Origin: Methylobacter sp.
GTDB lineage: Bacteria; Pseudomonadota; Gammaproteobacteria; Methylococcales; Methylomonadaceae
Reading direction: 5' to 3'
NCBI GenBank assembly: GCA_026399025.1
Contig: JAPLRU010000047.1
Location: 77,467-121,452 of the forward strand
DNA: 43,986 nt
This document shows, piece after piece, positions 20,138 through 41,365 of the stretch (within the stretch, counting starts at the first letter, position 1; each line of letters starts with the position of its first letter). A model generated the notes under the pieces. The model had not been told where the DNA came from, made no database searches, and worked only from the letters and a program-made list of their open reading frames with translations. Position numbers and translations under genes: made by a program.

Positions 20138-21859
20138 ATGTCAGTTAAAACAAAAGGTTATGAAAATCAACTGGGCGCTTTTGATGTCGAAGACGATTTT
20201 GACACTGATCATAATGGGTCCGGGGATGACGATAGTGGACTTGGCGGCTCAAGCAATGACACTGGAAGCGGCGACGGCGATGACAATCTATTAGGCGGTT
20301 TGGGGCTCGACCTTTTAAGCGGCGGCCTAGGCAATGATCACATCGACGGCGGCGAAGGCAATGACACTGAAAACGGCGGTGACGGCGATGATCATTTATT
20401 AGGTGGTTTGGGCGATGATGGTTTGGACGGTGGTATCGGCGACGATAATCTCGACGGCGGCGACGGCACGGATAACTTAGCGGGCGGTTTAGGGTTCGAC
20501 CTTTTAAGCGGCGGCTTGGGTAATGATCAAGTCGATGGCGGCGAAGGCAATGACACTGAAAACGGCAACGACGGCGACGATAATCTTTTAGGTGGTCTGG
20601 GTGATGATAGCTTGGATGGCGGTATCGGCGATGACGACCTCGATGGCGGCGACGGAGATGACCATTTATTGGGCGGTTTAGGACTCGATATCTTAGGAGG
20701 CGGTTTGGGTAATGAACACATCGATGGCGGAGAAGGTAACGATACTGAAAACGGTCATGACGGCGACGACAATCTTTTAGGTGGTCTGGGTGATGATAGC
20801 TTGGATGGCGGTATCGGCGATGACGACCTCGACGGCGGCGACGGCGATGACCATTTATTGGGCGGTTTAGGACTCGATATTTTAGGCGGCGGTTTGGGTA
20901 ATGACCACATCGATGGCGGCGAAGGTAACGATACTGAAAACGGCCATGACGGCGACGACAATCTTTTAGGCGGTTTAGGTGACGACAGTTTGGATGGCGG
21001 TATCGGTGACGATAACCTCGACGGCGGCGACGGCATCGATAACTTAGCGGGTGGTTTAGGACTCGACCTTTTAAGCGGCGGTTTGGGCAATGATAAAATC
21101 GACGGAGGCGAAGGCAACGACACCGGAAACGGCGGCGACGGCAGCGATTATTTGTTAGGCGGTTTGGGTGACGACAGCTTGGATGGCGGCATCGGCAACG
21201 ATAATTTGGCTGGCGACGACGGTGCGGATAATTTATCGGGCGGTTTAGGTCTCGATATTTTGAGCGGCGGTTTGGGCAATGATAGCTTGGATGGCGGTAC
21301 CGACGACGATAACCTTAGCGGTGGTTCAGGCACGGATAATCTTAACGGCGGCGACGGCAACGATGCATTAGATGGCGGCAAAGGCAGCGACAATTTAGGC
21401 GGCGGCTTAGGGGACGATAACCTTAAAGGCGGCTTAGGCATCGACAACCTGAGCGGTGGCGACGGCAATGACAGTCTATCGGGCGGCGCAGGCAACGACA
21501 ATCTCAGCGCCGGCAACGGTAATGACTTGGTAATCAGCGATTCAGGCCGGGATATGTTAACAGGTGGCGCGGGGGCCGATACTTTCAAGTTTTCCAATGA
21601 AAAACACTATTTGAAAGACGTCATTAGCGATTTTTCTGAAGGCGACAGGATTGACCTGAGGGCGATTGATGCTAACGCTACGACTTCGGCCAATGACGCT
21701 TTTAGCTGGGTAACGGGGGCTTTCAGTCAGGCCGGGCAATTGCACTACAATGCGGCCAATCACACTTTATACGGCAATACCGATGCCGATAGCGCTGCGG
21801 AGTTTGCGATTCAACTGACCGGTGTGAATAGCGTAGCCGATACTGATGTCATGTTGTAA
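20138..21859 (+). CDS. RTX-type calcium-binding repeat protein, probably type I secreted
   Basis: The 573-residue protein lacks a Sec signal. It consists almost wholly of glycine-aspartate nonapeptides of the GGxGxDxLx kind (about residues 44-480), which bind calcium and fold into a beta-roll outside the cell. The last 90 residues (ADTFKF, VISDFSEGDRIDL, and a hydrophobic end TDVML) are the C-terminal secretion region typical of type I exported RTX proteins. No catalytic domain is present, so it looks structural, such as a surface-layer or matrix protein. No exporter genes are in the window. It probably answers to sigma54 and the shared activator site. Confidence 0.85.
   Translation: MSVKTKGYENQLGAFDVEDDFDTDHNGSGDDDSGLGGSSNDTGSGDGDDNLLGGLGLDLLSGGLGNDHIDGGEGNDTENGGDGDDHLLGGLGDDGLDGGIGDDNLDGGDGTDNLAGGLGFDLLSGGLGNDQVDGGEGNDTENGNDGDDNLLGGLGDDSLDGGIGDDDLDGGDGDDHLLGGLGLDILGGGLGNEHIDGGEGNDTENGHDGDDNLLGGLGDDSLDGGIGDDDLDGGDGDDHLLGGLGLDILGGGLGNDHIDGGEGNDTENGHDGDDNLLGGLGDDSLDGGIGDDNLDGGDGIDNLAGGLGLDLLSGGLGNDKIDGGEGNDTGNGGDGSDYLLGGLGDDSLDGGIGNDNLAGDDGADNLSGGLGLDILSGGLGNDSLDGGTDDDNLSGGSGTDNLNGGDGNDALDGGKGSDNLGGGLGDDNLKGGLGIDNLSGGDGNDSLSGGAGNDNLSAGNGNDLVISDSGRDMLTGGAGADTFKFSNEKHYLKDVISDFSEGDRIDLRAIDANATTSANDAFSWVTGAFSQAGQLHYNAANHTLYGNTDADSAAEFAIQLTGVNSVADTDVML
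20267..21590 (+). repeat. Nonapeptide coding repeats with a 189-bp higher-order period
   Basis: On top of the 27-bp RTX unit there is a longer period. For example, GGTGGTCTGGGTGATGATAG occurs at 20591 and again at 20780, exactly 189 bp apart (seven nonapeptides). The blocks from about 20270 to 21110 are variants of this 63-residue module. They must have arisen by segmental duplication, and copy-number variation between strains is likely. Confidence 0.85.
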
Positions 21860-22017: not shown

Positions 22018-23802
22018 ATGCGCATCCATCGGATTTTATTAATCTCTTTTCTTTCCCTGTTTCTTTTAGCGACGGTTCCGATCGTCGCGCTTTCCTTTTA
22101 TGCCTCTCAAGTCGCTTTAGAAGCGGAAATCGGACGTAGCCTTAAAAACGATGCGGCGATGTTGATGGAACAAATCGACATGCTGATTTTTGAGCGCCTG
22201 CAAAACGTCCATTCCTGGAGCCACCTGGATATTATCCAGGAAGGCCGCATCGGCGATGTGGACAAGCGTCTGGCGCAATTTTTGGCGGAGTTGGAACACG
22301 GTTATCCCGGCGTATACCGAAACCTGTTTTATCTGGATAAAGAAAACCGGATTATTGCGGCCGGAGACCCGGTCTTAATCAAGCAATCTTTTCAGCCTCA
22401 GCCGGACTGGATACGGGCACATGTCCCGCACGGCGAAGTCTTCCTGGAAGCGTTGCAATTACAGCCCCCTTATGAACGGGCGGATCTGGTTATTCGCGCT
22501 CCGGTACCCGATAGCTATGCGAGCGGCGATATAGGACAGCTTTACGGCGTATTCGATCTTAGGCAAATTTTCCGCTTGTTCGATCAGGCCAGCCATTCGG
22601 ACGCCGGCGAGCGTTTTGTTATTCTACTGGATGCCGAGGGCAGAACCATAGCCGCTTCCGCGGCCGCGCGTGCGCAAAAGCTGCTGTTAACCGATACCTT
22701 CGCCAACTGGAAACTCAACGAACAGAACGGCATCGCTGTCCATACCGGCAAGCCCTTGCTTGATTCATCGGTATTGGTCGGTTATGCGCTTTCTAAAAGT
22801 TATGAAGGTTACGCCAATATGGGCTGGTCATTGTTGGTTATCCAGTCTACGCAGCAAGCGTTCCAGCCCATTTGGGCGTTGTGGTGGCTGTTTTGCAGCG
22901 CTTTTCTCATCATCGGTTTGATCGCCGGCGGCGTCGCGCAAGGGGTGGCGGGACGTATCGCCAAGCCCCTGCTGGATTTGACGGCTTGGGTCAGGCGCTT
23001 TCAAAAAAACGCGGACTGCATCAGCCCCCAAGTATCCGGCGCCCAAGAAGTGCGCGAACTGAGCTTGGCTTTCGGCCAACTCGCCGAAGATTTAGAGCGT
23101 TCCCGCCAACAGGTTGTTCATGCCGCCAAATTGGCCGTGGTCGGCGAAATGGCGGCGATTATGGCTCATGAAGTGCGCACTCCGCTGGGCATTTTGCAAA
23201 CTACCGCGCAAATGCTGCAATGGGAAAGCGCATTAAGCGCTGAAGGCCTGGAAATGGCCCATATGATGGTTGACGAAAGCGCCCGGTTGAACCGTTTGAT
23301 TTCGACTTTACTGGATTGCGCCCGTCCGCGTCCGCCCAATATGCAAGTGCAGGACGTGCATAAAATCATCGCCCGCGTGATCGACCTGCTGGCCACGCAG
23401 GCGCAAAAAAAAGCGCTGCACATTGATTGGCAGGCGCCGAAAAACCCCGCCATCATCGAATGCGACCAGGAATTGTTGGTTCAGGTTTTTCTAAACCTGA
23501 TTTTAAACGCCATTCAAATCGTTCCGGCAGGCGGGCGAATACGGGTGCGTACCGATTGCTCAAACGGCGAATCGGTAAAAATAACCGTAGCGGACGACGG
23601 CCCCGGCATTCCGCCGGAAAATCGAGCGCGCTTGTTCGATCCTTTTTTTACCACCCGAGACGGCGGCATCGGTCTTGGCTTAACCGTTACCCAACAAATT
23701 ATCGCCGTTCACGGCGGTCATTTGAGTGCGGGCTCAAGCGATTTGGGCGGCGCGTGTTTTACCTTGTTTTTACCTTTTTATCAGGAAGAAAAAATATGCT
23801 GA
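22018..23802 (+). CDS. Membrane sensor histidine kinase (NtrB/ZraS-like)
   Basis: This 594-residue inner-membrane kinase has a first transmembrane segment at about 5-28 and a periplasmic sensing region of about 240 residues. A second segment near 285-310 leads into a HAMP-like linker. The phosphoacceptor helix is MAHEVRTPLG with H384, and the ATPase domain has DDGPGIPPENRARLFDPFF and a GIGLGL box. It overlaps the downstream sigma54 activator by 7 bp, so the two are a cognate pair. Architecture is like kinases that answer to envelope signals. The ligand is unknown. Loss or change of its periplasmic domain should alter activation of the linked targets. Confidence 0.88.
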   Translation: MRIHRILLISFLSLFLLATVPIVALSFYASQVALEAEIGRSLKNDAAMLMEQIDMLIFERLQNVHSWSHLDIIQEGRIGDVDKRLAQFLAELEHGYPGVYRNLFYLDKENRIIAAGDPVLIKQSFQPQPDWIRAHVPHGEVFLEALQLQPPYERADLVIRAPVPDSYASGDIGQLYGVFDLRQIFRLFDQASHSDAGERFVILLDAEGRTIAASAAARAQKLLLTDTFANWKLNEQNGIAVHTGKPLLDSSVLVGYALSKSYEGYANMGWSLLVIQSTQQAFQPIWALWWLFCSAFLIIGLIAGGVAQGVAGRIAKPLLDLTAWVRRFQKNADCISPQVSGAQEVRELSLAFGQLAEDLERSRQQVVHAAKLAVVGEMAAIMAHEVRTPLGILQTTAQMLQWESALSAEGLEMAHMMVDESARLNRLISTLLDCARPRPPNMQVQDVHKIIARVIDLLATQAQKKALHIDWQAPKNPAIIECDQELLVQVFLNLILNAIQIVPAGGRIRVRTDCSNGESVKITVADDGPGIPPENRARLFDPFFTTRDGGIGLGLTVTQQIIAVHGGHLSAGSSDLGGACFTLFLPFYQEEKIC

Positions 23803-25160
23803 ACGGATCGCGAGTCCTGATAGCCGACGACGAAGCCAATGCACGACGGATTCTGGAAATTTTATTGCGCAAACTGGGGTGTGAAGTGTTTTCGGCGGCG
23901 GATGGTTTGGCCGCGCTGGACCTAGTGCGCGAAACGCCTATCGATTTACTGATCACCGACCTTAATATGCCGGGCATGAGCGGTTTGGAGCTGTTAGCCG
24001 CGATGCGCGGCAACGGCCATACTTTTCCGGTGATTGTGGTGACCGCTTACGGGACCGTCGAAACTGCGGTTGCGGCGATGAAACTGGGCGCTTTCGATTT
24101 TATTATCCGCCCGCTGGATGTCGAGCAAGTGGAGATGGTGATTCGCCGCGCACTCGAAGTGCGCAGAGTGCATCAGGAAAACGTATTTCTGCGCGATGAA
24201 ATGAATAAAGATTGGGGCGAATTCGTCGGGCAGTGCCCGGCGATGCAGAAAATTTACGAGTTGATCCGGCAAGCCGGACCCAGTAAGGCCAGCATTTTTA
24301 TTATCGGCGAAACCGGGACCGGCAAGGAACTGGTTGCGCGCGCCGTGCATAGCCAGTCGGGGCGACGCGGCTTATTCGTGCCGATCAACTGCGCGGCCAT
24401 TCCGGCCGATATTTTGGAAAGCGAACTGTTCGGTTATGTGCGCGGGGCTTTTACCGGCGCGCATAAGGACAGGATCGGTAAATTCGAATTGGCTCACGAA
24501 GGCACTTTGTTTTTGGATGAAATCACCGAAATGAACCCATCCCTTCAAGCCAAATTGCTGCGCGTACTCCAGGAAAGCCGCATCGATCGTTTGGGCAGTA
24601 ATCAAAGCATTGAAGTCGATATCCGCATTATCGCCGCGACCAATCGCGATCCCTTGGGCGCGGTTCAGGCCGGACGCTTACGCGAAGACCTTTACTATCG
24701 CATCAATGTCTTAGGCATTCAGTTGCCGCCTTTGCGGGAGCGGCGCGAGGATATTCCTTTGTTGGCTCGCCATTTTCTTAAGAAATACCGGCGCTCGCTC
24801 GGCGGCGGCTGTTTTACCCTGTCGAATGAGGTCGCTCAAGCCTTAAGCGCCTACGCATGGCCGGGCAATGTACGCGAACTGGAAAATATGATGGAACGGG
24901 CGGTGGTGTTAAGCCAAGGTTTAGAGATCGGCGTCAGGCATTTGCCTCAGGAAATATTGATAACCGAATTACCGGTAACGGTCGGTTCTGCCGTTGACGA
25001 TGAAGATATGGATTTGGAGGTCGGCGTGGCAAAACTGGAAAAGAGCTTATTGAATAAAGCCCTGGGACAATCCGTCGGCAATAAAGCCAAAGCGGCGCGT
25101 TTGCTGAAAATCAGCGAGCGCACGCTTTGGTATAAGCTCAAGAAATACGGCTTAACTTAA
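23796..25160 (+). CDS. Sigma54-dependent response regulator, NtrC family
   Basis: The 454-residue activator has a receiver domain (phosphoacceptor D55 in ITDLNMPGMSG). Its AAA+ domain has Walker A GETGTGKE, the sigma54-contact loop GAFTGA and Walker B LFLDE. The C-terminal Fis-type helix-turn-helix is NKAKAARLLKISERTLWYKLKKYG. The frame is open much further upstream, but the ATG at 23796 gives a normal receiver start, has AGGAAGAA before it and overlaps the kinase stop. The usual receiver Lys is Arg here (R105, IIRP). Two sigma54 promoters with a common enhancer site lie within 10 kb upstream and are likely targets. Confidence 0.9.
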   Translation: MLNGSRVLIADDEANARRILEILLRKLGCEVFSAADGLAALDLVRETPIDLLITDLNMPGMSGLELLAAMRGNGHTFPVIVVTAYGTVETAVAAMKLGAFDFIIRPLDVEQVEMVIRRALEVRRVHQENVFLRDEMNKDWGEFVGQCPAMQKIYELIRQAGPSKASIFIIGETGTGKELVARAVHSQSGRRGLFVPINCAAIPADILESELFGYVRGAFTGAHKDRIGKFELAHEGTLFLDEITEMNPSLQAKLLRVLQESRIDRLGSNQSIEVDIRIIAATNRDPLGAVQAGRLREDLYYRINVLGIQLPPLRERREDIPLLARHFLKKYRRSLGGGCFTLSNEVAQALSAYAWPGNVRELENMMERAVVLSQGLEIGVRHLPQEILITELPVTVGSAVDDEDMDLEVGVAKLEKSLLNKALGQSVGNKAKAARLLKISERTLWYKLKKYGLT

Positions 25161-31481: not shown

Positions 31482-33221
31482 TTAATGCGTATGGTCGCAT
31501 TCGGTAAGAAAACTCAAGATGCTCTCCCGGTATTTGTAGTAATCGGGATGCTCCAGCAGGGCTTTACGGCTGCGCGGCCGGGGTAAATCAATCTCTTCGA
31601 TTTTGCCGATTCTGGCATGAGGGCCGTTAGTCATCATCACCACGCGGTCAGCCAACAGAATGGCTTCATCGACATCATGGGTAACGACAATGGCGGTTAC
31701 ATGGGTTCTTTCCCAAACTTCCATCAACACTTCTTGCAATTCCCAGCGCGTCAACGAATCCAACATGCCGAACGGTTCATCCAGCAACAGCAGTTTGGGC
31801 GACAGGGCAAAAGCGCGTGCGATACCGACGCGTTGTTTCATGCCGTTGGACATGTCGCCGGCTTTTTTACGCAGCGAATCGCCCAAACCGACGCGGGTCA
31901 GATAATACTCGACAATGTCGTCGCGTTCCGATTTTGCCGCATGAGGGTAGACCTTATCGACGCCCAGCATCACGTTTTCAAACGCGGTCAGCCAGGGAAA
32001 CAGGCTGGGCGCCTGAAACACTACGCCGCGATCCGGTCCGGCGCCGGCAATTTCTTTGTTGTCTAAAATAATAACGCCTTCGGATACGCTGTTTAAACCG
32101 GCGGTCATTGACAACACCGTCGATTTACCGCAACCCGAATGGCCGATGATCGAGATGAATTCGCCTTTTTTCATTTTCAGGTCGAAGCCGTCGACGACTT
32201 TGACCGTGCCGTTGCCGTCGGGCGTCGGGTAGATTTTGGACAGCTTCGAAAATTCCAGATAGCGGGGGCGGCCCAAGTCATCCTGTGTCGGCTTCAAAGC
32301 CGAACGATCTCGGTCCCAGTCATTGCTGGTGTTGGGTTTAACATTGGGTAGGATGACCTTTTCAACGCTTGAGCCCAGATTTTTTTCGATGCCGATGTCC
32401 ATCAAATAGCGGGTGATTTCGGCGCGCAGTCTTTTAAACTCGGGGTTATGGTTTAATGCAGTGCGGTCTCTGGGACGCTCGATATGGATAGGAAAATCCG
32501 GGCCGAAGGTCGCATCGGGGCCTGGATTCAGCGGGATCACCCGATCCGCCATGTAAATGGCCTCATCGACATCATTGGTAATCAAAATGACGGTTTTCTT
32601 TTCCTGCGCCCAGATTTGCAGAATTTCGTCCTGCAAGTTGCCGCGCGTCAATGCATCCAGCGCGCTGAGCGGCTCGTCGAGCAACAAAATATCGGGACTG
32701 GCCGCCAAAGCGCGGGCGACGTTAACCCGTTGACGCATGCCGCCGGATAGTTCGGCCGGTTTTTTATCCATCGCCGCGCCGAGATTAACCATTCTGACGT
32801 ATTTTTCGGTATGCGCCCGGCGTTGCTCGGCAGGCCAATGCTTAAAAATTTGATCGACCGCCAGCGCCACGTTTTCGAATACCGTCAACCACGGCATCAG
32901 CGAATAGTTCTGGAACACCACGCCGCGATCCGGTCCCGGTGCGGTAATCGGTTGACCTTGTTTCAGCACTTCGCCGCTGTCGGCTTGAATCAGCCCGGCA
33001 ATGGTCGAAATCAGCGTGGTTTTGCCGCTGCCGGAAAAACCGACAATGGCAATAAATTCGCCTTCTTGAATGCTCAGATTGATGTTATTGAGGATGGATG
33101 TCGCGCCATAGCTTTTGCACACGGCCTTTAATTCCAGTAAAGGCTGCTGAGCGTCATTCGATGGCGCAGGCGGGTTAGTTTGCATGCGTTTATTCACAAC
33201 GTTAAGATTGACGACGGACAT
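31482..33221 (-). CDS. Nitrate ABC transporter, double ATP-binding protein (NrtC-NrtD fusion type)
   Basis: The 579-residue protein has two ABC ATPase domains in one chain. The first has Walker A GFSGSGKTT (61-69), signature LSGGMRQR and Walker B LLLDEPLSALD. The second has GHSGCGKST, MSNGMKQR and LLLDEPFGMLD. In the first domain the H-loop reads ITNDVDEA, with Asn in place of the switch His; the second has VTHDVDEA. So one composite ATP site looks degenerate. The start is set at 33221, where AGGAG precedes the ATG 13 bp after nrtB, although the frame is open further upstream. It powers nitrate import together with NrtB and NrtA. Confidence 0.88.
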   Translation of the reverse strand: MSVVNLNVVNKRMQTNPPAPSNDAQQPLLELKAVCKSYGATSILNNINLSIQEGEFIAIVGFSGSGKTTLISTIAGLIQADSGEVLKQGQPITAPGPDRGVVFQNYSLMPWLTVFENVALAVDQIFKHWPAEQRRAHTEKYVRMVNLGAAMDKKPAELSGGMRQRVNVARALAASPDILLLDEPLSALDALTRGNLQDEILQIWAQEKKTVILITNDVDEAIYMADRVIPLNPGPDATFGPDFPIHIERPRDRTALNHNPEFKRLRAEITRYLMDIGIEKNLGSSVEKVILPNVKPNTSNDWDRDRSALKPTQDDLGRPRYLEFSKLSKIYPTPDGNGTVKVVDGFDLKMKKGEFISIIGHSGCGKSTVLSMTAGLNSVSEGVIILDNKEIAGAGPDRGVVFQAPSLFPWLTAFENVMLGVDKVYPHAAKSERDDIVEYYLTRVGLGDSLRKKAGDMSNGMKQRVGIARAFALSPKLLLLDEPFGMLDSLTRWELQEVLMEVWERTHVTAIVVTHDVDEAILLADRVVMMTNGPHARIGKIEEIDLPRPRSRKALLEHPDYYKYRESILSFLTECDHTH

Positions 33222-33234
33222 CTTCGGCTCCTGA

Positions 33235-34251
33235 TTAAAGTGCTCTACCGAAAGAGAATAGGTTTTGTAAGGACTGCATGATGCGATCCAACGCAAAGCC
33301 GATCAAGCCGATGGTAAACACCGCTACCATGATTCGGCCCAAGGAGTTGGAACTGCCGTTCTGGAATTCGTCCCAAACGAACTTGCCCAGCCCCGGATTT
33401 TGCGCCAGCATTTCCGCCGCGATCAGCACCATCCAGCCCACGCCCAAGGACAAACGCATACCGGTAAAGATATAAGGCAACGCGGACGGCAAAATGATTT
33501 TCTTGATTTGAGTACTCCAGTTAAGACGCAGCACTTTGCCGACATTGATCAGGTCTTTGTCTATCGACGACACGCCGACGGCGGTGTTGATCAGAGTCGG
33601 CCACAGCGAGCACAACGTAACGGTAATCGCGGAGGTCAGGAATGATTTTTCGAACCAGGAATCGTCGCCGCTCACATACACGGCGCTGACCACCAAGGTG
33701 ACGATAGGCAACCAGGCTAATGGCGACACCGGTTTAAAGATTTGCACCAGCGGGTTGATCGCGGTGTTAAAAACCGGACTCATGCCGCAAAACAGACCCA
33801 GCGGTATGGCGACCAGCGTGGCAATCATAAAGCCCGCAAAGACGGTGTAAAGACTGGTGAAAATTTTGTCCAGATAAGTGGCTTGGCCGTTGTAGGGGCG
33901 AACTTTAATTTCAGCGCTCGGGTCTTCCGCCCGTTTTTGCTCGTTACGGGCTTGTTGGCGTTGGTAATAGTCGGCTTCTTTGGCCCGTTCCGCGTAATGG
34001 TCGTCCAGTAAGCCGGCGGCCTCATGCCATACCGCGACCGGGCCGGGAATGGCGCCCAAACTGGTATTGACCTTGGAGGCGGAAAAGCTCCAAAGCCCCA
34101 GAAACACCATGAAAGCGAGTATCGGCACGCCCATGATCAGCCACAGTTGGCGGATTTGCAACGAGGGGTTTTCTCCGGCGGCTATTTTGACCAGGGGAAC
34201 AAACCAAGTGAGTCCGGTTATGTTTAAAAATTTGATGATTTGATTGTACAT
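33235..34251 (-). CDS. nrtB: Nitrate ABC transporter permease NrtB
   Basis: The 338-residue inner-membrane permease of the NrtB/CmpB/SsuC family has an N-terminal helix (about 35-57), a hydrophilic stretch of about 60 residues rich in Arg/Glu, then five to six helices. The EAA-type loop GKVLRLNWSTQIKKIILPSALPYIFTG is where the ATPase docks. The ATG follows AGGAG. It belongs to the operon nrtA, cupin, nrtB, nrtCD. The substrate assignment comes from the operon and its nitrate-type leader. Confidence 0.88.
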   Translation of the reverse strand: MYNQIIKFLNITGLTWFVPLVKIAAGENPSLQIRQLWLIMGVPILAFMVFLGLWSFSASKVNTSLGAIPGPVAVWHEAAGLLDDHYAERAKEADYYQRQQARNEQKRAEDPSAEIKVRPYNGQATYLDKIFTSLYTVFAGFMIATLVAIPLGLFCGMSPVFNTAINPLVQIFKPVSPLAWLPIVTLVVSAVYVSGDDSWFEKSFLTSAITVTLCSLWPTLINTAVGVSSIDKDLINVGKVLRLNWSTQIKKIILPSALPYIFTGMRLSLGVGWMVLIAAEMLAQNPGLGKFVWDEFQNGSSNSLGRIMVAVFTIGLIGFALDRIMQSLQNLFSFGRAL

Positions 34252-34744: not shown

Positions 34745-36145
34745 TTACTCGACCACCTTGCCGCCGACCACTTTTTGCTTGCCCTTAAGGCCGATAGCGA
34801 ATTTAGTCAGATAATCATTAGGCTTGTTGGCGTCGAAACTTACCCCGTCAATGAAGTCGGCGCTGGCCGGCTTGATGCCGGTTTCGCTGTCGGCAGGAAA
34901 ATCGCCGGCTTTGGCTTTACCTTCGGCAACCAGCGCTTTCGCCGCCGCCATGTAAATATCGGGACGATACACTTTTTTAGCGGTTTCCAGATACCATGAA
35001 TCGGGTTTGAATTCGTTGATTTGGCCCCAGCGGCGCATTTGCGTCAGGCTCCAGATCGCATCGCTGTAATAAGGGTAAGAACCGTTATGACGGAAGAACA
35101 CGTTGAAATCGGGCAACTCGCGTTTGTCGCCTTTTTCATATTCGAAAGTGCCGTTCATGCTGTTGGCGAGAACTTCATAATCCGCGCCGACATATTGTTT
35201 TTGCGACAACATTTCCACGCCTTCATTACGATTTTTGTTGTTTTCCGCATCCAGCCACATTGAGGCGCGAATCAACGCTTTGATTACCGCTTTGTGAGTG
35301 TTGGGATTTTTTTCCGCCCATTCTTTATTCACACCGAAGATTTTTTCAGCGCTGTTTTTCATTAACTCATAATCGCTGATGACCGGTACGCCGATGCCTT
35401 TGAATACCGCTTGTTGATTCCACGGTTCGCCGACGCAATAACCGACAATCGTGCCCGAATCCATCGTAGCCGGCATTTGCGGCGGCGGCGTCACGGACAG
35501 CATCGCATCGGCGTCGATTTGCCCGGAGGTGTCTTCAGGCGGCGCGTAAAAGCCGGGTTTAATGCCTCCGGCAGCCAGCCAGTAGCGCAGTTTCATATTG
35601 TGCGTGCCGACCGGAAAGGTCATCGCCATATTGAACGGTTTGCCCGCGCTTTTGTATTTTTCCAGTACCGGTTTCAAGGTATCCGCTTTAACCGGATGGA
35701 CCGGCTTACCGTCTTTCATCGGAATTTGCGGCTTCATCTGATTCCAAACATCATTCGATACGGTAATCGCATCGCCGTTTAAAGTTAAGGTAAAGGCGCT
35801 GACAATATCGGCTTTGGTGCCGTAACCGATGGCGGTGCCGAAGGGCAGGGTGGCCAGCATATGCGCGCCGTCCAGCTCGCCGCTAACCACGCGGTCCAAT
35901 AAAACCTTCCAGTTGGCTTGCGCTTCAAGCTGTACGGAAAGGCCTTCATCTTCGAAATAGCCTTTTTCCAACGCAACCGCTAAAGGCGCCATATCGGTTA
36001 ATTTGATGAAACCAAGCTTTAAGCTGTCTTTTTCCAGCTTTTCAGCGGCCAAGACAGGGTTGGCAAAGGATAAGGTTGATACCACAGTCACGGCAGCGAA
36101 TGCGGTAAGCCATTTTTTGATTTTAAATTGTCCGGTTTGTTTCAT
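34745..36145 (-). CDS. nrtA: Nitrate ABC transporter substrate-binding protein NrtA
   Basis: The 466-residue periplasmic protein has a Sec signal peptide (cleavage after PVLA, about residue 33). The NrtA/CmpA-type body has LKLGFIKLTDMAPLAVALEKGYFEDEGL, ANWKVLLDRVVSGELDGAHML and GYCVGEPWN. The family binds nitrate, nitrite or bicarbonate. The upstream control region (sigma54 promoter, ANTAR-type leader, terminator) is of the nitrate-assimilation kind, which favours nitrate. It is the first gene of the operon. Confidence 0.9.
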   Translation of the reverse strand: MKQTGQFKIKKWLTAFAAVTVVSTLSFANPVLAAEKLEKDSLKLGFIKLTDMAPLAVALEKGYFEDEGLSVQLEAQANWKVLLDRVVSGELDGAHMLATLPFGTAIGYGTKADIVSAFTLTLNGDAITVSNDVWNQMKPQIPMKDGKPVHPVKADTLKPVLEKYKSAGKPFNMAMTFPVGTHNMKLRYWLAAGGIKPGFYAPPEDTSGQIDADAMLSVTPPPQMPATMDSGTIVGYCVGEPWNQQAVFKGIGVPVISDYELMKNSAEKIFGVNKEWAEKNPNTHKAVIKALIRASMWLDAENNKNRNEGVEMLSQKQYVGADYEVLANSMNGTFEYEKGDKRELPDFNVFFRHNGSYPYYSDAIWSLTQMRRWGQINEFKPDSWYLETAKKVYRPDIYMAAAKALVAEGKAKAGDFPADSETGIKPASADFIDGVSFDANKPNDYLTKFAIGLKGKQKVVGGKVVE

Positions 36146-36320: not shown

Positions 36321-36718
36321 AATTAATAAATCCATGTTTTGAGCGGGGCAGGGTAGAGAATATAAGCGCTTCTGGTCGATATTGGCCCCGGCAGGCCGGT
36401 TTTGGATTGTGCCTGGAATGCATCAATTCTGTGCATGCAACGGTCTTTTTGCACCAACGATGACAAATTACGATTGTTTTAAGGCGTATGGATTCAACGT
36501 TGTGGTTTTAGGTAATAGCGCGGGGCGTAACACTCGTCCTACACGGTTTCGGGACGTTGGCGCGTCTACGCCTGCATTCCCACGTCGGAGCGCTCATCGT
36601 TATGCATATATTAATGTAGTCAGCTATAAGACCATCCAAGCGCATAGCGCGAGTCGGCGTTTTCGGGTGGTGTTCCGTAAACCGGCAGAGATGCCGATCC
36701 GTTTGGCTTAAAACCCGG
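36321..36718. other. Gene-free stretch upstream of the nrtA promoter
   Basis: About 400 bp without a credible gene separate the nrtA promoter from the end of the toxin gene. It should contain the activator site for the sigma54 promoter; TTTGCACCAACGATGAC near 36459-36475 resembles half of an NtrC site, but the match is weak. Nothing else was found. Confidence 0.35.
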
Positions 36719-37006
36719 TTATGTGCGACTTGACCAATAGCCCGGTTTTCTACTGTTATGCATCACTGCAACTACATAAATTGACTCGTCAGTTTCCCGA
36801 TAAACCACAGAAAAGGGAAACCTGGAAAGTAAGAACCTTCGAAAGCCTTTTTCGAAAAACGGCCATGTTCGAGGACATTCAATAATCGCTTGATAAGCTG
36901 ATTCGAGTTCATTCAAGAAGTCATCCCCTAAACCTTCGGCTTGCTCTTGGTACCAAACGTATGAAGCTTTTATTTCAGAAGAAACTTCGGGGTGAAACCT
37001 TAACAC
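36719..37006 (-). CDS. ParE/RelE-family toxin
   Basis: The 95-residue basic protein has the fold signature of the ParE/RelE superfamily: FHPEVSSEIKASYVWYQEQ at the start, FLNELESAYQAI, then RRFLLSRFPFSVVYRETDESIYVVAVMHNSRKP. Such toxins block gyrase or cleave mRNA at ribosomes; which applies cannot be told. It starts 3 bp after the end of the antitoxin gene. Confidence 0.8.
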   Translation of the reverse strand: MLRFHPEVSSEIKASYVWYQEQAEGLGDDFLNELESAYQAIIECPRTWPFFEKGFRRFLLSRFPFSVVYRETDESIYVVAVMHNSRKPGYWSSRT

Positions 37007-37009
37007 ACC

Positions 37010-37225
37010 CTAACCTTTAACTTTTTTCTTTATATCGTCCCAAGATACAGACGCAACCTTACCGGAAACAAGCTCTTGATACCTAAGCTCGGCTAGTTCA
37101 GCCCATGATTGCTCAACGCCTTCATCGTGCTTGGTTTCAAGTGAAGAAATTAAACAATGAGCAACCAAGGCTCTCTCGTTAACATTTAATTGCTTTGCCT
37201 TTTCTAAAACTTGATTGATGTTCAT
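37010..37225 (-). CDS. Addiction-module antitoxin component
   Basis: The 71-residue acidic-to-neutral protein has MNINQVLEKAKQLNVNERALV and a C-terminal SVSWDDIKKKVKG, matching the small antitoxin family often found before ParE/RelE-type toxins (putative addiction module component). It is the first gene of the pair, as expected for antitoxins that also repress the operon. No clear operator palindrome is seen upstream. Confidence 0.78.
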   Translation of the reverse strand: MNINQVLEKAKQLNVNERALVAHCLISSLETKHDEGVEQSWAELAELRYQELVSGKVASVSWDDIKKKVKG

Positions 37226-37426: not shown

Positions 37427-39661
37427 TTAAAACTCTTCCCACTCGTCATTATCGGCAAGTTGTAACTGTACGTGTGGGCGCAACGCTACGTTTTTATTAG
37501 CGACTATTTTCTTGGTTGCGAGCGGGGGCTGAAAAGAACCGCGCGAATAGTCGCCCACTTTAAAACCGCCTACCGAAACCGACAGGTGTTGTGCCTGTTC
37601 TTCCAACGATTCCGCCGCCGCTGCGGCTTGTTCGACCAATGCGGCGTTTTGTTGGGTCACATTATCCATCTGGCCGATAGCCTGATTAATTTGTTTAATG
37701 CCGCTGCTTTGTTCGAGCGAGGCGGTGGTGATTTCGGCCATCTTGGCGGTAACCCCCCGGATGGAGGCGACAATTTCTTCCATAGTCAATCCGGCCTGCG
37801 CGACCAGCTTGCTGCCTCCGGAAACTTTGTCCACCGAATTGTCAATCAGGTTTTTGATTTCTCCGGCCGCCGTCGCGGCGCGTTGCGCAAGGTTACGTAC
37901 TTCAACGGCGACCACGGCGAAACCTTGACCTTGTTCGCCGGCGCGAGCGGCTTCCACGGCGGCGTTCAAGGCCAGAATGTTGGTTTGGAACGCGATGTCG
38001 TCGATGACCGAAATAATATCGCCGATCTTGCGTGAAGACTCGTTGATGTCAGTCATGGTCGCGACTACCTGACCGACCACTTCAACGCCTTTAGCCGCGG
38101 TGTCGGATGCGTCAACGGCAAGCCGGTTGGCATGTTCAGCGTTTGAGGCGTTATGCTGCACGGTCGAGGTCAGCTGCTCCATACTGGCGGCGGTTTGTTG
38201 CAGACTGGCGGCTTGCTGCTCGGTGCGATCGGACAATTCATTGTTGCCGGCGGAGATTTCCGTAGCCGCTGTGTGAATGCTGTCGGTGGCGTTTTTGATG
38301 TCGCCTACCAAATTTTTCAGGTTTTCGACGATGCCGTTCATACCGGTCATCATTTCGCCGAAAGTACCGGGATAATCTTTGTCGATGGTTTGGGTCAGGT
38401 TGCCTTGAGCCAGCGCATTAGCGACGTGCAACATGTCGTTGAAGCCGACATCGCAGGTTGTCATGAGTTTGTTCAGGTTTGTTAAAATGCCTTTGAACAT
38501 GAATTCGAATTTGTCCGCATCGCTACGCTTGGAAAAGTCGCCGGCGGCGCCTGCCTCCACCAACATTTTGATTTCGTTATTAACGTCAAGAAAGGTTTTC
38601 TTGGCGTCGTCCATGACTTGGGTAATCGCAATTGTCTCGCCCGGCAGAACATCCATGTCCATCGAAAAGTCGCCTTTGGCATACTGGTTGACGATACTGA
38701 TCAGCTTTCTATTGATCGCGATGCGGGATTGAACCAGTTCGTTCACTTCATGCGCCATTTTGCCGTAGATGCCGGAAAACTTTGTCGGATCGAGTTGTTC
38801 CTTGACCCAGCCTTCAGCGTGTTTTTTTGCGATAAAATCCAGGCCGGAAACAAAAGCGTTGATAGCATCCTGCATGGTTTTCATCGCGTTTAATAAGTCT
38901 CCGATTTCATTTTTTTGCTGAATATCGATGGCGGAACTTAAATCGCCTTTGGCAATGGCTCCAGCCACCTGTCGAACGGCTTTGAGCGCATCTAAAATAC
39001 CGCGGCTGATTAATGTCGTCAGCACGGTCGCGACTAAAATGCTGAAGATAAAAATCCCGATCAGGATTATTTTGTACTCCTGCCGGGTACTTCGCGCCAA
39101 AGCCTCATCGTTTACGGCATGGGCTGTTGCAAGCGTTACCACCTCGTTAATCGCCGCCCGGTGCAGTTCGTAAGCGTCGCGCATTTGCACAAGGTCGGCC
39201 GCCGCCGCGTTACGGTTGCCTGCCTGGATACTCGGTATAAAGTGTTGCTTGGCTGTCGTGTAAAAAGTTTGCGCCGCCCGGTAAGAGCGGTCAAGCAAAG
39301 CGGCATTGAGTCCCTGTTCCAAGGACTGAGACACCCAATAACGGTGACGGGTTTCGTATTCGGTTTTTAATACTTGAAAGCGCGATACCAAGGCGTCGAT
39401 TTCAGCGGGATCGTCGGACTGGATCAGTTGCAGCGCGACCAGATAAGATTCGATGATGTATTCGGGCGGCGGCAGAACATCGGCAATAATATCTTTGTTT
39501 TGGATAATCCGTTGATAGATCGGACCGTCGAGATTAACGGTATTCATGGCTTTAAACGTAGCGAAACCGAACAGTAAAAAGCCGACGGCCACTGTGCTTA
39601 AAATGACTGTAAAGCGCATTTTAATCGTTAACTGATCTAAATTTTTTATCTTATTGAACAT
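37427..39661 (-). CDS. Methyl-accepting chemotaxis protein, probably nitrate-related
   Basis: This 744-residue chemoreceptor has a membrane helix at about 17-36, a periplasmic sensing region of about 160 residues with the motif ADVLPPPEYIIES, and a second helix near 197-221. Several HAMP-like segments follow in tandem, then the signalling hairpin (AFQTNILALNAAVEAARAGE). The chain ends in EWEEF, resembling the xWxxF docking tail for CheR/CheB. The ATG at 39661 is preferred to the GTG at 39670 because AGG lies 8 bp before it. Its promoter and leader copy those of nrtA, so it is probably made only when nitrate is to be assimilated, and may sense nitrate or nitrite. The ligand is inferred. Confidence 0.88.
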   Translation of the reverse strand: MFNKIKNLDQLTIKMRFTVILSTVAVGFLLFGFATFKAMNTVNLDGPIYQRIIQNKDIIADVLPPPEYIIESYLVALQLIQSDDPAEIDALVSRFQVLKTEYETRHRYWVSQSLEQGLNAALLDRSYRAAQTFYTTAKQHFIPSIQAGNRNAAAADLVQMRDAYELHRAAINEVVTLATAHAVNDEALARSTRQEYKIILIGIFIFSILVATVLTTLISRGILDALKAVRQVAGAIAKGDLSSAIDIQQKNEIGDLLNAMKTMQDAINAFVSGLDFIAKKHAEGWVKEQLDPTKFSGIYGKMAHEVNELVQSRIAINRKLISIVNQYAKGDFSMDMDVLPGETIAITQVMDDAKKTFLDVNNEIKMLVEAGAAGDFSKRSDADKFEFMFKGILTNLNKLMTTCDVGFNDMLHVANALAQGNLTQTIDKDYPGTFGEMMTGMNGIVENLKNLVGDIKNATDSIHTAATEISAGNNELSDRTEQQAASLQQTAASMEQLTSTVQHNASNAEHANRLAVDASDTAAKGVEVVGQVVATMTDINESSRKIGDIISVIDDIAFQTNILALNAAVEAARAGEQGQGFAVVAVEVRNLAQRAATAAGEIKNLIDNSVDKVSGGSKLVAQAGLTMEEIVASIRGVTAKMAEITTASLEQSSGIKQINQAIGQMDNVTQQNAALVEQAAAAAESLEEQAQHLSVSVGGFKVGDYSRGSFQPPLATKKIVANKNVALRPHVQLQLADNDEWEEF

Positions 39662-39799
39662 GATCTGCACCTGTATTGATTTTATGATCGGTGGGTTAAT
39701 TGTTCGGTAACTGCCGTTTAAGTGCCGGCTAGTGTTTTAAAGCGTTCTGCAAAATCACAGACGAGCAGCCGGACTCGGCTTCGTTTAAGTTTTAAAGGT

Positions 39800-39856
39800 A
39801 AAAAAAAGGCGCCTCCAAACGGAATGCTTGATGCATTCGTTGGGTAGACGCCTTTG
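39800..39856 (-). terminator. Intrinsic terminator in the chemoreceptor leader
   Basis: On the minus strand AAAGGCGTCTACCC and AACGAATGC pair with GCATTCCGTT and GGAGGCGCCTTT in one long hairpin followed by eight T. It lies before the chemoreceptor start codon and corresponds to the terminator of the nrtA leader, sharing GACAAAGGCGTCTA. Confidence 0.78.
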
Positions 39857-39864
39857 TCTAGTGG

Positions 39865-39909
39865 GGCTCGCCTTTGAACCGGTATTTTTAACAGCTCCGC
39901 CATTGGAGC
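39865..39909 (-). promoter_or_regulatory. ANTAR-type two-hairpin leader of the chemoreceptor gene
   Basis: The minus strand reads GCTCC-AATGGC-GGAGC (39894-39909) and GGTTC-AAAGGC-GAGCC (39865-39880). Both loops have six bases with A first and G fourth. Compared with the nrtA leader, loop bases differ at the free positions and one stem has a G-U pair, so the structure and not only the sequence is kept. Confidence 0.8.
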
Positions 39910-39928
39910 TTCTTGGTATTAAGGGAAA

Positions 39929-39945
39929 AGCAAGCGTTGTGCCAA
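39929..39945 (-). promoter_or_regulatory. Sigma54 promoter of the chemoreceptor gene
   Basis: On the minus strand TTGGCACAACGCTTGCTTT fits the -24/-12 consensus with 10 bases between GG (39942-39943) and GC (39930-39931). Transcription would begin near 39918, just before the first leader hairpin, exactly as at nrtA. Confidence 0.8.
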
Positions 39946-40354
39946 AATTATCATGGCTTTGTATTTTACTTTTATTAAATCAATATCTTGTAATTTATAG
40001 GTGAATTAATGCGGCTGGTTTAATAAGGTATATGAATGATCTCAAATGATTTATTCGTTTGATAGGGTTAAGAACCGATGTTGTAATGGGGCTTTTTAAC
40101 GGGCTTAATTTGATAAGCGTAAAACCTTGCAGCTTATATTGCTGAAATAAACGCTTAGTTTTTGTGCGCCAGGTTGCCGACTCGCACCAATTGAGTTCTT
40201 CCGGTATGCAACAGGGGAGGTGTCATAGTGTTTTTTTGAACACTTTACGGAAGCACTATTTGCGCCGTTTGTAGGATTACGGCATGATAAATGGAACATT
40301 GATGCTTTATTGGTTTTTGCATAATTCCGTATATGATCGGCTCAAACAGGCTCG
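39946..40354. other. Divergent intergenic region upstream of the chemoreceptor and GAF genes
   Basis: About 400 bp without a credible gene. A short hairpin AGTGTT/AACACT lies near 40228-40245. It should hold the activator site for the chemoreceptor promoter on the minus strand and the promoter of the GAF gene on the plus strand, but no convincing match to an NtrC site was found. Confidence 0.4.
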
Positions 40355-41365
40355 ATGAGCTTTTCGGTACTCCGCTTATACTTTCAGCTCAATACCTCCT
40401 CAACGCCACCCGATCTTCACCGTCTGCATTTTGCTATAAAAAATAAAATGAAAACATTTATTAAAGTCACCGAAATATGGCTACCAAGCAAAGATCGTAC
40501 CCGCTTGGAGTTTAACGCCGGTCTGTACGGCCCTTTGAATGAATTTCGGGTCGCCAGCGAAAAAGAATCCTTCGCTTATGACGAAGGTTTGCCCGGCAAA
40601 GCCTGGGCCGTCGGTCATCCTGTGGTATTAACCGAATTCGATCATTCTTATTTCAAACGGACCCAATCGGCTAAAAAGGCCGGTTTAACCTGCGGTATTG
40701 CCATTCCGGTGTTTTCAGGCGAATTTATCATGGCCGTGGTGGTGTTTTTGTGCGGGGACGACCAACATCATGCCGGCGCCATAGAACTCTGGGGCAACAG
40801 TTTAGAGAACGACGCGGAACTGGCGATGATTGACGGTTATTACGGTACGCTGGATGATTTTGAACGTATTTCAAGAAAAATAAAATTCGGCAAAGGCTCC
40901 GGTTTGCCGGGGCAAGTGTGGCAAACCGGCATGCCCGTGCTTATAGAAGATATGGGCTTGGCATCCGCCTTTATCAGAAGCGCGGATGCGGCAAAAGCCG
41001 GAATCACCACGGCCTTGGGCATTCCGGTTGCGGTCCTTGCCGACCAGGTTTATATCATGACCTTTTTATCGGCTAAAGCGACGCCGATTGCCCAGCGTAT
41101 CCAGATATGGGTGCCCGATGAAACGGGGCAATTTTTGCTCTGTCAGTCGGGATACAGTAAACAAAACGACGAATTGGCTGAAATATTCGAAACCATGTCG
41201 GTGCGAAAAGGCGAGGGCATATTGGGCCGGGTGTGGTTGACCGGCATTCCGGCGATCAGGAATAACACGGCGAGTAGTGTTGCCTTGGGGCGCTTGAATT
41301 CCATGCTGGCCATGCCGGTTATAGACGGCGGAAAATTGAAAGCGGTGGTTAGTTTTTTGTTTTAA
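40355..41365 (+). CDS. Soluble protein with three GAF-like domains
   Basis: The 336-residue cytoplasmic protein has no output domain. Three related segments can be seen: about residues 32-135 (EGLPGKAWAVGHPVVL, AGLTCGIAIPV), 145-240 (SGLPGQVWQTGMPVLI, AGITTALGIPV) and 245-336 (EGILGRVWLTGIPAI, LNSMLAMPV). The repeated (E/S)GxxGxxWxTGxP pattern is typical of GAF domains that bind small molecules. The start is uncertain: 40355 has a weak AGG before it, while an in-frame ATG at 40448 would remove 31 residues. It probably acts as a sensor or partner of another signalling protein. Confidence 0.7.
   Translation: MSFSVLRLYFQLNTSSTPPDLHRLHFAIKNKMKTFIKVTEIWLPSKDRTRLEFNAGLYGPLNEFRVASEKESFAYDEGLPGKAWAVGHPVVLTEFDHSYFKRTQSAKKAGLTCGIAIPVFSGEFIMAVVVFLCGDDQHHAGAIELWGNSLENDAELAMIDGYYGTLDDFERISRKIKFGKGSGLPGQVWQTGMPVLIEDMGLASAFIRSADAAKAGITTALGIPVAVLADQVYIMTFLSAKATPIAQRIQIWVPDETGQFLLCQSGYSKQNDELAEIFETMSVRKGEGILGRVWLTGIPAIRNNTASSVALGRLNSMLAMPVIDGGKLKAVVSFLF

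Follow-up and report, generated by a model that had tools for sequence, protein, structure and literature searches.

A chemoreceptor gene in a 43,986-base stretch of Methylobacter DNA (the window; the assembly that carries it is called the own genome) can be placed with good confidence in the nitrate-assimilation regulon of this bacterium. Its transcription would start at a sigma54-type promoter and would pass an intrinsic terminator through antitermination by a NasT-like protein at two leader hairpins, P2 and P3. The gene encodes a protein with MCPsignal (E 3.7e-54) and HAMP (E 6.5e-14) domains, the former marking it as a methyl-accepting chemotaxis protein (MCP). Two transmembrane helices, judged from the sequence by eye, accompany a periplasmic domain of ~160 residues. 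From the elements that precede both genes, sigma54- and ANTAR-type control resembling that of nrtA (nitrate transporter, substrate-binding protein) is very likely. These elements are as follows.

39945-39929, minus strand: sigma54-type promoter TTGGCAC-N5-TTGCT of the chemoreceptor gene, an exact match to TTGGCAC-N5-TTGCW
39909-39894, minus strand: hairpin P1, 5 bp, hexaloop AATGGC (from fold and alignment)
39880-39865, minus strand: hairpin P2, 5 bp, hexaloop AAAGGC (from fold and alignment)
39859-39846, minus strand: hairpin P3, AGAC-AAAGGC-GTCT, 4-5 bp, hexaloop AAAGGC, overlapping the 5' arm of the terminator
~39855-39805, minus strand: stem of the intrinsic terminator, with a T8 tract at 39807-39800 (from the fold)
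37427..39661, minus strand: chemoreceptor gene, ATG at 39661, stop codon at 37427, 744 residues
36320-36304, minus strand: sigma54-type promoter of nrtA, an exact match to TTGGCAC-N5-TTGCW
36320-36176, minus strand: nrtA leader, with P1 at 36287-36272, P2 at 36257-36242, P3 at 36236-36223 and a T9 tract at 36184-36176
40166..40190, minus strand: enhancer-like upstream element TTGGTGC(A/G)-N-(T/G)GC(A/G)C before the chemoreceptor leader
36431..36457, minus strand: enhancer-like upstream element TTGGTGC(A/G)-N-(T/G)GC(A/G)C before the nrtA leader

Promoter and leader of the chemoreceptor gene

The leader ends at 39800, 138 bases before the chemoreceptor start codon. The full sequence folds as P1, P2 and the terminator, and the minimum free energy fold of the RNA before the terminator 3' arm is made consists of P1, P2 and P3. 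Promoter, hairpins and terminator are all present as the original prediction had them, except that the hairpins number three and P3 had been missed. The nrtA leader, 3.6 kb away, has the identical order of elements; its spacings, which had been taken to be the same, differ by a few bases. The linker between P2 and P3 is 5 nucleotides (nt) in both window leaders and 4-6 nt in 14 leaders of the genus; that between P1 and P2 is 13 and 14 nt in the two window leaders and 11-15 nt in the same 14. P2 and P3 have the features of an ANTAR antiterminator, namely hexaloops with A at position 1 (A1) and G at position 4 (G4), overlap with the terminator and a linker in the range of ~5-12 nt. The P1 hexaloop of the chemoreceptor leader likewise has A at position 1 and G at position 4. 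Because the 5-nt linker and the overlap of P3 with the terminator agree with the ANTAR antiterminator as published, P2 with P3, rather than P1 with P2, is the likely antiterminator. The originally predicted control by sigma54 and an ANTAR protein is thus retained with a different pair of hairpins. The main terminator was not flagged by a simple terminator pattern scan since its stem is interrupted; it is visible in the fold.

Both leaders fold more stably than dinucleotide-shuffled versions of themselves (z -4.4 for the chemoreceptor leader and -6.3 for the nrtA leader), and none of 200 shuffles equals either. An independent covariance model was trained on 38 leaders of other genera, all of them before genes for proteins other than chemoreceptors, and gives the chemoreceptor leader 96.3 bits (E 8.6e-19) and the nrtA leader 96.0 bits. 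A second covariance model (R1) was built from 14 leaders including both of those in the window; in the own genome, at E<=1, it matches only these two, besides antisense echoes of both. In the structure that includes the terminator, 93.3% of cells pair across the 14 genus leaders and 7 of 31 pairs are changed on both sides, values that 0 of 500 shuffles equal for either pairing or both-sided changes. Five of the 21 terminator pairs show such changes, and the pairs of P1 hold in 98.6% of cells. Across 69 leaders of the family, A1 and G4 are kept in 61 and 63 cases in P1, in 63 and 63 in P2, and in 69 and 67 in P3. At gathering thresholds, Rfam finds nothing in the window. Under permissive search the narK RNA (RF03032, gathering 43.2 bits) appears at 31 bits in the nrtA leader and 26.5 bits in the chemoreceptor leader, and P11 (RF00625, gathering 70 bits) at 24 and 27 bits, respectively.

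The promoter of the chemoreceptor gene has the -24 GG and -12 GC of a sigma54 site at the right spacing. Within one mismatch, TTGGCAC-N5-TTGCW occurs twice in the window, at the chemoreceptor and nrtA sites, both times exactly. As chance would give 0.61 matches and 11 of 100 shuffled sequences have at least two, the promoter sites alone are modest evidence. A looser sigma54 pattern with another spacer and two mismatches allowed, and the NtrC-type pattern TGCAC-N7-GTGCA, both occur in the window at chance level, and no sigma70-like site was seen from 39600 to 40460. The upstream element occurs twice in the window, once per leader, compared to a mean of 0.15 in 100 Markov-resampled windows, a post hoc count since its reversed arrangement (GGTGC-N-TGCAC) was spotted by eye before counting. 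It also precedes 14 of 19 other leaders of the genus (4 of 5 before receptor genes, 7 of 9 before nrtA, 2 of 4 before EAL genes and the single one before a NIT-GGDEF-EAL gene), and its distance ahead of the modelled leader is 136-160 bases in 13 of these 14. The element resembles NtrC half sites, in an order unlike the usual palindrome. This resemblance makes control of the chemoreceptor gene and nrtA by NtrC plausible.

Distribution of the leader and the genes behind it

Comparisons were made with 23 genomes of the genus, 237 of the family and 369 of the class. Full or near full-length best matches to the chemoreceptor (L003-L014), treated as orthologues, are found in 12 of the 23 genus genomes, and the leader lies directly upstream in six of them (G000, G001, G004, G009, G013 and G021). 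P2 and P3 with A1 and G4 are kept in the receptor leaders of five of these six. This conservation, together with that of A1 and G4 in the family leaders, bears out the expectation that the hairpins would recur in related genomes. On a contig of Methylobacter tundripaludum SV96 (L126) the order is leader, receptor, leader, nrtA, as in the window, with the GAF gene divergent. Three genomes (G009, G013 and G021) carry a longer series consisting of a leader and EAL gene, a leader and receptor gene, and a leader and nrtA. At the nrtA gene of G010 (L010:4395), the sigma54 site is kept and most of the leader including the terminator is gone, as if leader control had been lost there.

At E<=0.01, R1 matches 134 of 237 family genomes, from 20 of 29 genera. 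The stretches fetched comprise the genus hits among the R1 matches listed, minus G008 (a contig end), and a selection from outside the genus. From these, 71 leaders were read with their downstream gene, after 21 further matches were dropped as antisense echoes. The downstream gene is nrtA in 47, nirB in 7, a chemoreceptor in 7 and an EAL gene in 7; the remaining three, one each, are genes for a NIT-PAS-GGDEF-EAL protein, a NarK-type transporter and an alginate-export-type porin. The covariance search that the original prediction called for thus places 7 of the 71 leaders read in the family before a chemoreceptor. The 30 leaders within the genus precede nrtA (17), the chemoreceptor (6), EAL genes (6) and one other gene, and the 41 from elsewhere in the family precede nrtA (30), nirB (7), a chemoreceptor (1), an EAL gene (1) and two others.

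The EAL proteins behind the leader are of the cyclic di-GMP (c-di-GMP) phosphodiesterase type, and six of their seven loci (L065:2805, L066:2453, L068:2156, L071:8557, L076:1531, L080:1123 and L092:654) are in the genus. The EAL motifs were checked in seven proteins, six preceded by the leader and one, at L033, with no leader; all motifs are present in six, the exception being L071. At L072:1953-6001 (G022, contig C5), the gene behind the leader encodes a NIT-HAMP-PAS-GGDEF-EAL protein, which combines a domain of the nitrate/nitrite-sensing type with c-di-GMP domains. The chemoreceptor found behind a leader outside the genus (L086:1072-3562, G170) is a different one, whose ligand domain is of the Tar type. 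As the G170 genome is 7% contaminated, this case is weak evidence that recruitment occurred independently.

Metabolic genes, chiefly those for nitrogen metabolism, are known targets of ANTAR antitermination. A chemoreceptor gene as its target had been called unusual, and the wider search agrees. Covariance model R2 matches 38 of the 369 class genomes, including two from the family, and a chemoreceptor lies downstream in none of the 28 loci read outside the family. Judged by eye from their first residues, the downstream genes at these 28 loci serve to take up or reduce nitrate or nitrite. At five loci (L267, L271, L275, L284 and L286) the leader was not located by pattern and the frame was taken from a fixed offset; at L263 the displayed frame is wrong and a NarK-type gene is present. 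None of the 16 narK-RNA hits, found in 15 of the 369 class genomes, precedes a chemoreceptor, and two of them (L239 and L243) look like chance hits.

Candidate regulatory proteins and the proposed mechanism

The other genes of the locus considered here are listed below.

34745..36145, minus strand: nrtA, nitrate ATP-binding cassette (ABC) transporter substrate-binding protein (NMT1_2), named from its position beside nrtB and nrtCD
33235..34251, minus strand: nrtB, named from its position
31482..33221, minus strand: nrtCD, nitrate ABC transporter ATP-binding protein (TIGR01184 match)
40448..41365, plus strand: triple-GAF protein gene, divergent neighbour of the chemoreceptor gene

Small open reading frames lie between nrtA and the chemoreceptor gene (36719-37224, minus strand); among them is a 95-residue protein that presumably resembles toxins of the RelE/ParE type. 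Elsewhere in the window, a 573-residue protein (20138-21859, plus strand) has repeated GGxGxD-like calcium-binding repeats and appears RTX-like by eye. At 22018-25160 (plus strand) there is a histidine kinase and, behind it, a response regulator that contains a GAFTGA motif and is of the sigma54 activator type by eye.

The own genome encodes two ANTAR proteins. One, on contig C67, is NasT-like and combines an ANTAR domain with a receiver match that falls short of the Pfam cut-off. Among the 237 family genomes, 127 have both a NasT-like gene and the leader, 7 have the leader only, 7 have NasT only and 96 have neither; a p value for this co-occurrence overstates it, as the genomes are related and are not 237 independent cases. 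The proposed antitermination of the NasR/NasT type is supported to the extent that a NasT-like ANTAR protein accompanies the leader, but a NasS-like sensor is not part of the picture obtained.

The triple-GAF protein may be the sensor or partner of NasT in place of NasS. It is found in 79 of the 237 family genomes, 78 of which have NasT, and in 58 of the 79 its gene lies directly behind nasT on the same strand at a distance of 8-54 bases (e.g. L214, L215, L216, L221 and L228), where the gene of a NasT partner like NasS could be looked for. This arrangement occurs in 0 of the 15 genus genomes that have the GAF protein; the own genome has a second triple-GAF copy on contig C78. NasT occurs in the absence of the GAF protein in 56 of the 237 genomes. 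In two such loci read (L217 and L218) a NasS-like gene adjoins that of a divergent NasT, and in L209-L213, L219, L223 and L224, also from genomes with no GAF protein, nasT lies closely behind or overlaps a gene for a NarK-type transporter (assigned to the major facilitator superfamily by Pfam in L209 and by likeness in the rest). NreA was considered as a relative of the GAF protein, and the sequence link is not significant. The single-sequence comparison gives E 0.58 and, with a seven-sequence profile, NreA is not among the matches at E<=1. The idea of the GAF protein as a sensor therefore rests on gene order and co-occurrence, and the protein may sense nitrate.

In the proposed mechanism, transcription would start at the sigma54 promoter. 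Such a promoter requires an enhancer-binding activator, which would be NtrC. By default, transcription would stop at the leader terminator. P2 and P3 would be bound by an ANTAR protein in its active state, for which the NasT-like protein of C67 is the most likely candidate, and P3 when bound could not pair into the terminator, so that transcription would read through into the chemoreceptor gene. The signal that activates NasT would most likely be nitrate or nitrite, as for nrtA, and the triple-GAF protein may sense it. Because the promoter and RNA switch match those of nitrate-uptake genes, the receptor is probably made when nitrogen is short and nitrate is around, and probably only then, as originally proposed.

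Several observations weigh against this mechanism. When P3 replaces the terminator in the structure, only two pairs are changed on both sides, both of them in P1, and 18 of 500 shuffles do as well; no both-sided change falls in P2 or P3 in the 14 leaders. Since such changes fall in P1 alone, the support for P2 and P3 comes from conservation and geometry, not from covariation. The second ANTAR protein of the own genome has a full receiver domain. NasS was not found in the own genome, where the sole NMT1_2 protein is NrtA. Six of the 12 genus orthologues have no leader seen directly upstream. In four of these genomes (G003, G010, G020 and G022) the receptor gene lies behind an EAL gene in an apparent operon, and a leader before that EAL gene is detected in G022 alone (67 bits). 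In G005 a contig end is too near upstream to judge, and in G017 the context is different and there is no leader. Among the receptor leaders, that of G001 is degenerate, with P2 and P3 broken, and the P1 loop has no G4 in G009, G013 and G021, in which P2 and P3 are intact. Beside the NasT-like gene, the own genome also carries a paralogous pair of EAL and receptor genes (L033) with a sigma54-like site and no leader match.

The decay in G001, the genomes that keep the receptor but not the leader, and the likeness between the receptor and nrtA leaders could also be taken to mean that the chemoreceptor leader regulates nothing at the receptor, being a plain attenuator or an inherited leftover from duplication of the nrtA leader. 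This is very unlikely, as the two kinds of leader diverge in sequence while their stems are kept with changes on both sides, and P2 and P3 retain A1 and G4 intact in five of the six receptor leaders. Antitermination by a NasT-like protein at P2 and P3 is the better account of a leader maintained in this way.

Ligand of the receptor and relation to known systems

The original prediction went on to propose that the receptor itself senses nitrate or nitrite, so that it would be induced by its own ligand. It shares its regulation with nrtA and its gene adjoins nrtA, and in the genus the same type of receptor is also found beside nasT and EAL genes. The ligand domain, however, gives this proposal little encouragement. 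PilJ and NIT (PF08376) have no match in the window protein at E<=0.01 over the whole length or at E<=1 over the first 215 residues. The N-box of the nitrate chemoreceptor McpN ([IVL][ND]xAGxQRML[ST]Q) occurs in 0 of 72 related ligand domains, and the motif G-x-x-R is absent from the chemoreceptor ligand domain. No Pfam ligand-domain family was found for the window protein, and among 25 of 62 families listed, TarH and 4HB_MCP_1 match 27 and 24 of the 72 relatives at E<=1. The single ligand-domain sequence has no match in the PDB, and a profile gives weak matches, several of them to designed helical proteins. The domain belongs to a wide family (288 relatives in 377 candidate stretches, of which the best 80 were retained) in which the segment KDxxADxxPPPEYxxE is strongly conserved.

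Seven related receptor genes (L129, L130, L132, L137, L138, L141 and L143) lie 7-340 nt downstream of a series of genes from nifB to nifQ, positioned as if co-transcribed with it. NifB and NifQ were identified by TIGR01290 and PF04891 in L138, and the other six loci by similarity to L138. Ligand domains of these nif-linked receptors are 60-67% identical to that of the window, compared to 62-70% for five leader-controlled orthologues. In a tree of 73 ligand domains, the receptors under leader control are not set apart from the others, and two of their domains (L133 and L139) belong to a supported group that also contains nif-linked domains, in a bootstrap that had not settled. Leader-controlled receptors as a single clade found no support, since the tree needs four changes and 0% of bootstrap trees have one; 139 and 141 of 500 shuffles, from which unlabelled rows were excluded, were as low. 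The similar identities and the mixed tree argue for a ligand common to the nif and nitrate settings, and a ligand shared with the nif-linked paralogues appears more likely than nitrate.

These findings make it unlikely that the receptor detects nitrate or nitrite, and that part of the original prediction is not upheld. A further point against it is that the transcript of McpN in Pseudomonas aeruginosa is repressed, not induced, by nitrate, according to the available part of PMC6381276. The alternative of a receptor for nitrogen acquisition in general, duplicated into positions under nitrate antitermination or behind nif genes and responding in both to the same cue (e.g. molybdate, or another nutrient or redox signal), is somewhat more credible, although still tentative. 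It accounts for the same type of ligand domain directly behind the nifB-nifQ genes in seven loci and for the grouping of L133 and L139 with nif-linked domains, and a relative from Burkholderiales (L175) lies downstream of an ammonium transporter gene. However, molybdate is a guess from the cofactor need of nitrogenase and nitrate reductase. The receptor family is wide in Betaproteobacteria, where most loci showed no adjoining nitrogen gene in the queries made, and the contig of the own genome that carries nifQ (C38) has no receptor match among the matches listed.

More widely, the nitrate-assimilation regulon may tentatively be seen as one that extends to behaviour, in which NasT acts in the absence of NasS on a signal from the triple-GAF protein and reaches a chemoreceptor, c-di-GMP phosphodiesterases and a NIT-GGDEF-EAL protein, the receptor type having also been duplicated into the nif region. 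If so, nitrate would reset swimming or settling, and a single nitrogen-hunting receptor would have gained two alternative supply lines. An RNA switch before a chemoreceptor gene and, in relatives, before genes of c-di-GMP enzymes would tie nitrogen supply to behaviour at the level of RNA. Such a wider regulon, with its behaviour genes and NasT in the absence of NasS, would be the result of greater interest. The three recognition loops in place of two, and the conserved GAF partner that often accompanies NasT when NasS is missing, are notable as well. Methanotrophs often live at oxic-anoxic boundaries and can use nitrate, and for this reason a receptor made under such conditions alone could matter for where they settle.

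McpN is comparable to the present receptor in that its gene responds to nitrate, a response that is predicted in Methylobacter. It differs in having a PilJ domain and N-box and in a transcript that falls with nitrate, and the available part of PMC6381276 mentions no ANTAR leader. The NasS-NasT systems of Paracoccus and Azotobacter, as presented in part of PMC3795266, share with the window a NasT-like ANTAR protein and leaders before nitrate genes; the difference is that NasS was not found in the own genome. In the accessible text of a paper on the NasT regulon (PMC6759348), the terms chemotaxis, chemoreceptor and flagell do not occur.

As their alignments were read, the Rfam models of narK RNA (RF03032) and Pseudomonas P11 (RF00625) each contain a promoter-like GGCAC...TTGC/CTGC block, a hairpin whose loop is CAACG and a GACAAAG(A/G)CGUC element. 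These two families and the window leader look like one unit of promoter and ANTAR leader. Their models contain one upstream hairpin and the GACAAAG element compared to three hairpins here, and the scores are far below gathering. At the class level, their hits precede nitrate genes where the gene is recognisable.

The closest likeness is to the dual-hairpin antiterminators of ANTAR proteins (nasF/NasR, amiE/AmiR and eut/EutV). The accessible part of Ramesh 2012 (PMC3369931) describes these as paired hairpins, the second of which sits at the 5' base of the terminator. In the E. faecalis eut genes the natural linkers measure 5-12 nt, and in a eutP construct linkers of 3 and 14 nt were harmful. 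In the legend of its Figure S3, a putative ANTAR RNA that covers the ribosome-binding site of an MCP gene serves to illustrate that control might act on translation instead of at a terminator. In the literature searched, which covered few subscription papers, this legend is the sole precedent in which an MCP gene carries an ANTAR RNA. The Methylobacter leader shares with the dual-hairpin antiterminators of that paper the hexaloops with A1 and G4, the short linker, the overlap with the terminator and an ANTAR protein encoded in the genome, and differs from them in its additional upstream hexaloop hairpin, P1, and in having a chemoreceptor gene as its target.

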